Below are positions 25,568-52,063 of a stretch of DNA of 64,000 bases, piece by piece. How positions within the stretch are numbered: position 1 is the first letter of the stretch; the number at the start of each line of letters is the position of its first letter. Position numbers and translations under genes: made by a program. This stretch comes from Coemansia sp. RSA 487. Lineage: Eukaryota > Kickxellomycota > Kickxellomycetes > Kickxellales > Kickxellaceae. The notes under the pieces are model-generated. The model was not told the DNA's origin. It searched no databases and saw nothing but the letters and a program-made list of their open reading frames with translations. The stretch is from contig JANBRJ010000041.1 of assembly GCA_027577595.1 (NCBI GenBank), positions 81,680 through 145,679 on the forward strand, in the 5' to 3' direction.

Positions 25568-26229
25568 TTAAATAAGAAGCTTCTCGATCTGCTGCTTGAT
25601 GTTGGTGATCTGGGGCTTGAGATCCGAGGCTTCGTTGGTGGTGACCGAGGCAGCAACAACAGAACGCGAGACACCGCACGCACGACCAAGAGCGGTCTTC
25701 GAGGGAACAAAGACGTAGGGGACGTTCTTGTCTTCGCAAAGCAGAGGCAGATGGAGGAGGATCTCGATGGGCTCGCAGTCGGCAGCCATAATGATGAACT
25801 CGGAGATACCGCGGTTGAGGGTCTTGGTGGCCTCGTTGGCGCCCTTCTTCAGCTGCTTGTAGTGCGATGCCTGCTGCACAAGATCCAGGATCTTGGTACT
25901 GAGCGTTGCGTCGGCAAGAGGAAAAGCCTTGGGGTCAACTTCCGTGGTCTACACACGCCAAAAACGGATTGTTAACGAACAATAAAGAAACACACTTGCT
26001 TCGTTAGTAACCATGATGTTATCGTAGTATGTTTGTTTGTTTTCACTGGATCGGTGGTGTTAAGAGCAAGAATCAGATATTAAAAATCACAGCTGGTTAC
26101 ATGTTTATAATTGATTGTTGGTTTCAAAGTGAGCTGGGTGTGAAATCATCACATTCGTTGCTTTATACGATGCACAGAAGAGAAAGCATATCTCCAGCGG
26201 TTGAACAAAAAATACCAAAAGCTTACCAT
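25568..26229 (-). CDS. SNU13: Snu13/15.5K, L7Ae-family kink-turn RNA-binding protein
   Basis: Core protein of box C/D snoRNPs and of U4/U6.U5 snRNP; it binds kink-turns in C/D snoRNA and U4 snRNA in nucleolus and nucleus. The 127 residues are nearly the yeast (126) and human (128) length. Landmarks: [55 protein letters not shown]. The frame lacks a start until an intron is allowed: exon 2 (25568-25948) follows a TAG acceptor, and exon 1 is only the ATG at 26227-26229 followed by GTAAGC. A perfect TACTAAC branch point at 26003-26009 lies in that 278-base intron and makes the nearer ATG at 26013 unlikely. The intron also holds a C/D snoRNA candidate. Confidence 0.93.
26066..26161 (-). ncRNA. 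intronic C/D-box snoRNA candidate, snR71/U29-like
   Basis: Within the SNU13 intron on the sense strand. C box GTGATGA at 26152-26146; D box CTGA at 26076-26073; flanks GCAACGA and TTCTTGC form a terminal stem (four pairs, a mismatch, two more pairs). The guide ACCCAGCTCAC after the C box is an exact 11-base complement of GUGAGCUGGGU, a conserved segment of large-subunit rRNA downstream of the A-loop (recalled from memory). With TTGA as D' box, the D'+5 rule points to the A that snR71 methylates in yeast (Am2946). The element is upstream of the branch point, as expected for intron-processed snoRNAs. Confidence 0.75.
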
Positions 26230-32422: not shown

Positions 32423-33844
32423 TTAAAGAAACCATGGAACAGGAAATATTATCCTCTCGATTTGCGAATCTGGTGATAGCTTGTGCAAGAAAAAGATAAA
32501 TTTATTCACTTTTTTCTCCGTGTGCTTCTTGAATGAATGTTTTTGGATCTCTCTAGCATATATTTTAGTGAAATCCAAACATTTGTCCAAGCTAAATCCT
32601 CTAAAATCGATAGTTGAGTCAAACATAACAATTGATAGATTTGGTATAAACTTTAGGTCATAAATTGATATCAGAAAAGAAAGCGCAAATGGATATAGCC
32701 CAATTAACACATTGGTAAGTTTTGGCGCCAGTACTTTATAGTCTACCTTGTGTTTAGTATTGCTCCACATCAAATCAGCAACATCACCAGTAAACGTATC
32801 TGAATTAGCTCTTAGGCGTAGCGATTTAAGATTGGAAATGTGCAAAGTTGTTACATCATCGCTATCTCCAAATGAACTCCAATTGAACCCACCTCTCAAA
32901 GCATCCAAATAAAGCACCTTCAGGTTTTCAGGACATATATGCGGAATATAGTTTGTAGGTTCGCCTTTTCCAGTTAATCCAGCATACTCTAGTTTTTCAG
33001 AAAAGGAATCTACCTTTTCAAGAACAACATGCGGATATACAAATCCTTTCAGCTGATGTGCATATCCTTTTATGATTCCTCTGGAAAACCTTATTGCTCC
33101 AGGTTCAAAATTGGATCCCCTCAGTTTAATAAACTCTACTGATGGGATGAGCTGTGCAAATTCTTCACCTAAATAGTCGACTTTTGTAATATTAGAAGGC
33201 ACGCTTGATAAATGGCGGGCAGAATGATACAAACAGAAAATCAGCTCCACTTTTTTGATCTTCTTTAAGAAGTGGCTACAATGACGTACCTTTTTCATTA
33301 TACCACTGATAATATCTGCCGAGTCATCATATCTCTTGATAAAAACCTGAATGTTCTGTGGCCAATGCTCACCATGGTTATTTACCACATCTAGATTAGA
33401 TCTTGTTATTAGTTTTTTTGTCAGACGTTCATGTAATCTATAAGAGCTAGTTCCTTTAAGTAAGTTGATAGAGTCACTGAAGCTGCTGGCTGAATAACTG
33501 GACCTGTGACTCAAGCCATCAGAGTCATAGACTGAAGCATCAGATCTGTTGGTCGAATGGTCAGACATGGTACAGTCGCTACTAGAATCCTCATTACTAA
33601 AGCGGTCGAAAGGTGCACCATCTTTCCAGCATTCACCCTCACGGACACTGATGCATCTAATAAATGAAGTTCTGTGTACATGGGGAAGCGCTAGTTCTCT
33701 GTATACTTTACATACAGCCAGAAGCTTAAGCTTGCCTCTCCATACCTCTGGTCTGTAATGTCTAATTTTTGCCCCCTCAAAGCCATTGCATGTCCAGTCA
33801 AATATTTTAGCAAGTACCAGATCAGGAAGCTCGTTAATATGCAT
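32423..33844 (-). CDS. F-box-like protein with LRR-like body
   Basis: 473 residues, one exon, ATG at 33842-33844. The N-terminus (INELPDLVLAKIFDW, then KLLAVCKVYRELALPHVH) is an F-box of the lineage-expanded type in early-diverging fungi, expected to link SCF ubiquitin ligase to a substrate. A Ser/Asp-rich insert (about 85-125) follows, then irregular leucine-rich stretches (LKVLYLDALRGG, LHISNLKSLRLR). Convergent with the BED-methyltransferase gene, 111 bases apart. Base composition is AT-richer than its neighbours, as is common for fast-evolving F-box copies. No substrate can be predicted. Confidence 0.8.
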   Translation of the reverse strand: MHINELPDLVLAKIFDWTCNGFEGAKIRHYRPEVWRGKLKLLAVCKVYRELALPHVHRTSFIRCISVREGECWKDGAPFDRFSNEDSSSDCTMSDHSTNRSDASVYDSDGLSHRSSYSASSFSDSINLLKGTSSYRLHERLTKKLITRSNLDVVNNHGEHWPQNIQVFIKRYDDSADIISGIMKKVRHCSHFLKKIKKVELIFCLYHSARHLSSVPSNITKVDYLGEEFAQLIPSVEFIKLRGSNFEPGAIRFSRGIIKGYAHQLKGFVYPHVVLEKVDSFSEKLEYAGLTGKGEPTNYIPHICPENLKVLYLDALRGGFNWSSFGDSDDVTTLHISNLKSLRLRANSDTFTGDVADLMWSNTKHKVDYKVLAPKLTNVLIGLYPFALSFLISIYDLKFIPNLSIVMFDSTIDFRGFSLDKCLDFTKIYAREIQKHSFKKHTEKKVNKFIFFLHKLSPDSQIERIIFPVPWFL

Positions 33845-51376: not shown

Positions 51377-52063
51377 ATGCAAATGAAATTTGCAAAAATT
51401 CATCATCATCATCATCATCGCCACCATCATCGCAATCACAATCAAGTCTGCATATGCTTATCCCTTTAGTGATACTACAAATTCTATAGCTGTCTCGTCT
51501 ATAAAATGCGATCAAGGTAATGTCAGTGATAACAATCAGCTAACAAAAGTATGGTTTATAATAGCTATAAATGCATATCGCCTCACGAGTCAAAAAATAA
51601 ACAAAAGTAGCTTGTAATAGGGAACTATAAAATTTAATGAAATACCTCACCAAACATGTATCCATATTTCTAACATTGTATAGCATTGTTATCTGCCTGC
51701 TTTTCATTATTCCGAAATTGTCGTTTTTACAAAAAGTAACATCTACCAATAATATCACCTTTTTAAACTCCATTTGCAGGACATTCCCCTTTTCGAGACA
51801 GCTATAAAATGGAGTACAAGGTGGTTTACACTGACCCCATCTCAAAAGAAGTAAAAACAGTTTGGTCAAGCCCTTTATATACATTTGCCGGCACTGACGA
51901 GGAAGCTAAACATCAAATTTATGAAACTATTCGCAATGATTTGCTCTTTGAGCTAGAGGTTGCAATTCTAACCACCGATACTATTGGCGAAATCACGGAC
52001 GAGATTCTTAGGAACGTCTATTCCTATAATAATATTATTATTAGCATTGAGAGAATAAAATAA
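51377..52063 (+). pseudogene. small secreted protein gene with one-base frameshift
   Basis: From ATGs at 51377 and 51383 the frame reads MQMKFAK and then runs into poly-His across a (CAT)6 tract. One base less in the A5 run at 51394-51398 would put it in the frame of an excellent signal peptide (FIIIIIIATIIAITIKSAYA) followed by YPFSDTTNS. That frame reaches a GTAATG donor at 51517; a 263-base intron ends in CAG, and exon 2 (51780-52063) joins in phase and encodes a beta-hairpin-helix domain (MEYKVVYTDPISKEVK and on). Intact product would be about 140 residues. Real frameshift or sequencing error cannot be told apart. The domain resembles the gene at 52649. Confidence 0.6.

Follow-up and report, generated by a model that had tools for sequence, protein, structure and literature searches.

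A putative box C/D snoRNA of the SNORD29/snR71 type in the SNU13 intron of Coemansia sp. RSA 487

The SNU13 locus of Coemansia sp. RSA 487 raises the question of whether the gene for the protein that begins the assembly of C/D snoRNPs carries a C/D snoRNA in its own intron. Coemansia is placed in the Kickxellomycotina, an early-branching fungal lineage. The original prediction, made for a stretch of 64,000 nt (hereafter, the window), had proposed such an element at positions 26003 to 26229. The motifs on which it drew, i.e. the GTAAGC donor, the C box GTGATGA, the guide, TTGA, CTGA and TACTAAC, are all present, on the minus strand. The proposed span thus holds the right contents, but it ends at TACTAAC, whereas the predicted intron extends for 278 nt to the GTGTAG acceptor at 25949. 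The host gene is laid out as follows:

26227 to 26229, minus strand: coding part of SNU13 exon 1, consisting of the start codon ATG alone (ATG followed by GTAAGC)
26221 to 26226, minus strand: 5' splice site GTAAGC, directly after ATG
25949 to 26226, minus strand: SNU13 intron of 278 nt between codons 1 and 2, with GTAAGC donor and GTGTAG acceptor
26003 to 26009, minus strand: TACTAAC, matching the branch-site consensus, with its A 68 nt downstream of the D box and 55 nt short of the 3' splice site
25971 to 25976, minus strand: GTTAAC, a second branch-like sequence by motif resemblance, with its A 23 nt short of the 3' splice site
25568 to 25948, minus strand: SNU13 exon 2, residues 2 to 127 plus stop, with matches to PF01248 and yeast Snu13

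Joining of the predicted exons at GTAAGC and GTGTAG yields an in-frame Snu13 of 127 amino acids, and either TACTAAC or GTTAAC could serve as branch point. The product matches the Pfam family L7Ae (PF01248) with an E-value of 1.4e-28, and its top matches in the PDB are yeast Snu13 (E 1.4e-60) and human Snu13 (E 2.6e-58). The best seven of the 60 chains listed all have E-values of at most 3.9e-58; five of them are labelled Snu13, NHP2-like 1, 15.5K or 13 kDa, and the remaining two 'NHP2/L7aE family protein YEL026W' and 'Ribonucloprotein'. Labels are mixed at intermediate values (2aif_A 'ribosomal protein L7A', 7.4e-53; 5oql_V 'Snu13 | H/ACA subunit 2', 2.8e-47; 5ewr_A Snu13p, 9.5e-47; 3o85_A 'Ribosomal protein L7Ae', 5.4e-34), and among the matches listed, chains named solely H/ACA subunit 2 or Nhp2 start from 2.3e-22 and those of eL8 from 2.6e-25. 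Judged from these E-values and labels rather than from a tree, the predicted product qualifies as an ortholog of Snu13/NHP2L1 rather than of Nhp2 or eL8. The nearest named fungal relatives among the matches listed are Coemansia snu13 proteins of up to 98% identity. The identification of the host as SNU13, which the original prediction had already made, is thereby firmly supported at the level of the predicted protein.

The database entries of related proteins bear on the position of the intron. At least 11 of the 120 Snu13 homologues listed have 'partial' in their names, and all of these 11 were inspected within a set of 22 sequences, their start positions being judged by eye against full-length entries. 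Seven of the eight 'partial' entries from Coemansia and Linderina (P0003, P0004, P0030, P0040, P0054, P0103 and P0108) start at residue 2 and the eighth, P0065, starts later; the three others (P0025, P0036 and P0067) have no starting methionine and were left unplaced. Starts at residue 2 are what annotation would give for a first coding exon made up of ATG only, and they suggest that the intron position is conserved. On the presence of a snoRNA in these relatives they say nothing.

Within the intron, the following elements of the putative snoRNA were located, all of them in sense orientation:

26065 to 26162, minus strand: candidate C/D snoRNA of the SNORD29/snR71 type, about 98 nt with its closing stem, ends inferred from Rfam and anatomy
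26154 to 26162, minus strand: 5' arm of the closing stem, AGCAA-c-GAA, from folding
26146 to 26152, minus strand: C box GTGATGA
26129 to 26139, minus strand: guide ACCCAGCTCAC, complementary over 11 bp to LSU rRNA GUGAGCUGGGU, with a duplex energy of -22.6 kcal/mol
26124 to 26127, minus strand: D' box TTGA, its fifth base upstream a T opposite the target A, with the same spacing as in the SNORD29 consensus AGCUCACUaUGA
26073 to 26076, minus strand: D box CTGA
26065 to 26072, minus strand: 3' arm of the closing stem, TTCTTGCT, from folding

The element thus has RUGAUGA near its 5' end and CUGA near its 3' end, as is required of a box C/D RNA. The closing stem of the original prediction exists, albeit in a corrected form, AGCAA-c-GAA / UUCUUGCU, with 8 bp, one bulge and -6.3 kcal/mol; of 2000 mononucleotide-shuffled versions of the flanks, 53 gave a stem as stable as this. 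It is flush with CUGA and stops one base short of the C box, so that U-G-U is left before GAUGA. A three-base bulge is expected under the C/D kink-turn rule, and the predicted stem, the 3-nt UGU bulge and CUGA together fit the kink-turn register. Inspection of the element by eye revealed no clear C' box; the D' box TTGA is present.

The guide assigns the element to a family and to a site. Its exact complement to GUGAGCUGGGU is 11 bp long, as had been claimed, and neither more nor less in both yeast 25S and human 28S rRNA; the target sequences were taken from printed text, i.e. from a yeast 25S oligonucleotide in the available part of PMC8044721 and from human 28S in that of PMC12477938. Against both texts, the D' guide to LSU GUGAGCUGGG has an A at D'+5, and the T at this position of the guide faces that A, in agreement with the application of the D'+5 rule in the original prediction. 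This register points to the adenosine methylated by SNORD29/snR71-type RNAs, and methylation at this site is predicted for Coemansia. The original prediction numbers the target A as A2946 of yeast 25S; a literature search for this position in connection with snR71 returned nothing.

That the site is the one of snR71, as originally proposed, is borne out by a table on Neurospora crassa in which snR71, U29 and Nc CD27 are equated as guides of 26S-Am2904 (PMC2780460, available text). According to the same text, the snR71-type site is guided in yeasts, Arabidopsis and human, and the Nc CD27 element is predicted to serve Cm2906 as well. The A-G-C in the target accords with this two-base offset between A and C. 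In the available part of a study on nucleomorphs, SNORD29 is assigned to human LSU-A4493 and is one of 25 families that are traced back to the last eukaryotic common ancestor (PMC6461891).

Compared with SNORD29/U29 (RF00070), the Coemansia element has the same boxes, guide core AGCTCACT, guide-D' spacing, single D' guide and target adenosine. Unlike it, the element scores below the Rfam cut-off and exceeds the model by 25 bases, of which 23 lie between D' and D. It also has another host gene, SNU13, than the human RNA, which is hosted by the non-coding SNHG1. The intronic fungal homologue of snR71/U29, Nc CD27 (85 nt), likewise uses a D' guide, but its pairing extends over 15 nt, and a second action is predicted for it on the C two bases on, the snR69 site (PMC2780460, available text), whereas the Coemansia element pairs over 11 bp and its D' box, as we read it, would fit the A register only. 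In the same source, 45 of 55 Neurospora C/D snoRNAs are intronic and the distance from 5' splice site to stem is mainly 41-60 nt; in Coemansia it is 64 nt, i.e. near this range. Because the Nc CD27 homologue is intronic and the distance is near that found in Neurospora, the reading as a snR71-type snoRNA gains further plausibility.

The covariance model gave a more ambiguous result. The Rfam SNORD29 model, proposed as a check in the original prediction, matched the element from end to end (26157-26068, minus strand), but with 22.8 bits against a gathering cut-off of 48. The genome-wide E-value of this match is 0.36, and a spurious site ranks above it with 23.6 bits. Sub-threshold matches to the model also turned up in 12 of 14 control genomes; the 12 that are named are prokaryotes. 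The Rfam score alone is not significant: it lies at the chance level for the genome and is no proof of a snoRNA. What carries the case is that boxes, guide register and stem occur together, and in an intron on the sense strand. On anatomy and guide register, the assignment of the guest as a SNORD29/snR71-type C/D snoRNA, made in the original prediction, is well supported, and it falls short on the curated Rfam score. Because this score is under the cut-off, we say that the element 'works like' SNORD29/snR71, homology being likely and not proven.

The chance-level score also belongs to a competing explanation, in which an ordinary intron happens to contain C-, D- and guide-like words that have fallen into place. 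C..D pairs are indeed common: counting both strands of the 64-kb window, RTGATGA has a CTGA 45-110 nt further on in 12 places, the intronic pair among them, and five of the 12 stem from one simple repeat. Over 128 kb of strand, the 12 amount to roughly one pair every 10 kb. The intron as a whole folds no more stably than its shuffles (z +1.03), which fits an ordinary intron as well. At least three stem pairs in the exact kink-turn register are found in two of the 12 pairs, the intronic one included, and in four of the 12 if offsets are allowed. The rarity of the combination argues in the other direction. The genome was searched for TGATGA followed after 3-25 bases by AGCTCAC, which gave 16 sites compared to seven for a control with the pattern read backwards; all 16 were inspected, 12 by script and four by eye, and a D' box at the snR71 distance plus CTGA within 90 nt was found in the intronic site only. 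Similarly, ACCCAGCTCA occurs at 38 sites in the genome, compared to 14 for its control, and inspection of all 38 revealed C, D' and D together only at the one in the SNU13 intron. With C and D boxes joined by a stem in kink-turn register, on the sense strand of an intron, and with an exact 11-nt complement in the right D' register to a site that is guided in yeasts, Arabidopsis and human (PMC2780460, available text), we regard chance resemblance as very unlikely.

Several other candidates were rejected. The 23.6-bit SNORD29 match at C105:9302-9364 (L002:1501-1563) is without TGATGA, its guide is broken and no CTGA follows the guide. At L021, one of the 16 sites with C box and guide, where TGA directly follows the guide as in the snR69 register, there is no CTGA in the next 90 nt and, by eye, no purine before the C box. 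The sole feature is a D'-like TGA at the ACCCAGCTCA sites L044, L050 and L060, a C box at L055, and a C box with one mismatch at L033 and L056. A C..D pair of the window at 33330 on the minus strand, with a 4-bp stem in register, looks coding-like by eye. The combination of C box, guide and D' was found 0 times in viral contigs. In the window, no Rfam family reached its gathering score and ARAGORN found no tRNA genes. Identical stretches occur on three contigs (24 bases in L002 and L020, 18 bases in L020 and L062); they apparently represent a dispersed repeat, one copy of which would mimic part of SNORD29. At 51406-51418 on the minus strand of the window, a run of TGATGA-like units gives five overlapping C-box matches, a simple repeat and no snoRNAs.

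A second snR71 homologue elsewhere in the genome, which by the original prediction would have spoken against the intronic element if it fully accounted for the modification, was searched for and is absent among the sites examined, i.e. the matches to the Rfam SNORD29 model and the 16 and 38 pattern sites, in an assembly apparently without rDNA. The LSU sequence GTGAGCTGGGTTTAGA, present in the yeast and human LSU text, had no match with up to one mismatch in the 184 contigs of the assembly, so the rDNA is probably absent from it and the assembly hence incomplete. This incompleteness, for rDNA at least, leaves room for a different history, in which the intron holds a relic, i.e. a once-functional snR71 copy that has dropped out of processing, while a gene in unassembled sequence serves the modification. 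The unrecognised C' box would agree with such decay; the terminal boxes, guide and stem, however, are all intact, and with no second candidate among the sites examined, a relic appears exceedingly unlikely.

Taken together, the SNU13 intron very probably contains a real, functional snR71-type snoRNA. The SNU13 pre-mRNA would then hold an intronic box C/D RNA with the function of snR71 in yeast and SNORD29 in human. Once the intron had been spliced out and debranched, exonucleases would degrade it up to the borders of the part covered by the C/D snoRNP, so that the snoRNA would be freed from the spliced intron as an ordinary LSU methylation guide. Snu13 would bind the C/D kink-turn first, followed by Nop56, Nop58 and fibrillarin; that Snu13 is the first binder of the kink-turn is established for the class (PMC7671301, in the text available). 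Pairing of the D' guide with LSU rRNA would direct 2'-O-methylation of the A in GUGAGCUGGGU. While gene, intron signals, boxes, guide complementarity and register are observed, expression, processing, protein binding and methylation are expected from the class of RNA. Since host and guest are on one transcript, the supply of the guide would follow the supply of its first binding protein. The co-regulation suggested in the original prediction holds in this weak sense, in that a shared transcript of SNU13 and the snoRNA is implied; feedback is possible, if unproven.

Folding of the intron as naked RNA adds a further layer. At a probability of 0.99, the donor GUAAG is paired to CUUGC in the 3' stem arm, and this pairing and the snoRNA stem are mutually exclusive. 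With the snoRNA stem imposed, the fold is 4.5 kcal/mol less stable at 37 °C, a figure in which kink-turn pairs and protein are uncounted. The favoured naked fold, in place of the snoRNA stem, hides the first four bases of the C box and most of the D box. The pairing of donor and arm was retained in seven growing transcripts (P 0.85-0.98) and in four of five longer contexts (P 0.93-0.98), but fell to 0.37 in the fifth. Among 300 dinucleotide shuffles, pairing of the donor to that arm never reached P≥0.5, and in two the donor paired somewhere within the snoRNA at P≥0.9; with donor and arm fixed and the rest shuffled, P 0.9 was reached in 0 of 300 and P 0.5 in four of 300. As the hypothesis was formed after the fold had been seen, these figures flatter it. 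In addition, retention of the intron would give a frame of 26 codons that is closed within the C box by two consecutive stops, TGA TGA; this is a one-in-three matter of frame.

These observations raise the alternative that a genuine snoRNA also acts in cis, the assembly of the snoRNP altering access to the 5' splice site and giving Snu13 feedback on its own mRNA. This would be a refinement of the snR71-type reading and is compatible with it. The strong and, among shuffles, rare pairing of donor and arm and the short frame of the retained intron are in its favour, and there are precedents, in SNORD86/NOP56 and in the L7Ae of archaea, which binds a k-turn located in the leader of its own transcript, as far as the available texts describe them. 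Apart from its post hoc choice and the one longer context with weakened pairing, it has to contend with the finding that 18 of 300 dinucleotide shuffles hide the entire donor somewhere at P≥0.9 and that shuffled introns are on average more stable than the real one, with 169 of 200 folding at least as well. Moreover, freeing of the donor by Snu13 would be a positive, not a homeostatic, feedback. We think a cis role unlikely. The most specific form of the idea, which we consider quite unlikely, makes the intron a two-state sensor of Snu13: without Snu13, the 5' arm of the intron would pair with the 3' half of the snoRNA, the donor would be hidden and the intron retained; with Snu13 bound to the C/D kink-turn, this pairing would break and both mRNA and guide would result, tying the amount of protein to the production of the guide.

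Of known systems, the nearest is SNORD86, a C/D snoRNA that resides in an intron of NOP56, itself a gene for a C/D core protein (Lykke-Andersen 2018, as covered in the available parts of PMC11028025 and PMC10324135). The same texts describe feedback on mammalian NOP56 by its snoRNA guest. In contrast to the Coemansia element, which has a clear rRNA target and a hypothetical cis role, SNORD86 is described there as an orphan that acts mainly in cis on splicing. The autoregulation of archaeal L7Ae, in the available text of PMC6298567 and PMC5539422, is similar in that the transcript of an L7Ae/Snu13 family protein contains a bindable kink-turn. There, however, an element of the 5' leader folds upon binding and blocks the ribosome-binding site, whereas in Coemansia the putative kink-turn lies within an intronic guide RNA. 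The extension of the idea to a whole C/D toolkit hosting snoRNAs is unsupported, as Rfam gave no snoRNA match at E-values up to 3 in three Nop-domain loci and one fibrillarin locus (open frames of 342-538 aa), a search in which a weak one could be missed.

While an intronic snR71 homologue (Neurospora) and a C/D snoRNA in a core-protein gene are known, SNU13 as host is new with respect to the literature searched. The matches listed, mostly open-access, contain no report of SNU13 as a snoRNA host, a word search did not find SNU13 in the main text of PMC8216456 and PMC12309372, and no literature on Coemansia snoRNAs was found. Genes of ribosome biogenesis and RNA processing are enriched among snoRNA host loci (PMC12309372, available text), and snoRNAs are mobile among broadly expressed hosts in comparative work (PMC3511168, available text), so that SNU13 may be just one such landing. 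The Coemansia element appears to be an ordinary, ancient guide for rRNA methylation in a fitting and possibly regulatory host gene. If this is true, hosting by core-protein genes extends to the very protein with which the assembly of C/D snoRNPs starts, in one early-branching lineage of fungi, and the SNU13 pair would allow shared transcription alone to be tested against cis regulation as the reason why such pairs persist.

The same genome contains a candidate C/D snoRNA of the snoR38 type at L067:1878-1979 (C13:247877-247978, minus strand), with 39.5 bits at a cut-off of 45, an E-value of 3.9e-4 and a closing stem of 7 bp. By eye, it sits between two open frames, in no obvious intron of a coding gene, which suggests that snoRNAs of Coemansia sp. 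RSA 487 occur outside coding-gene introns too. Its score is far above that of the intronic SNORD29 match in the same genome, both being below their own cut-offs.
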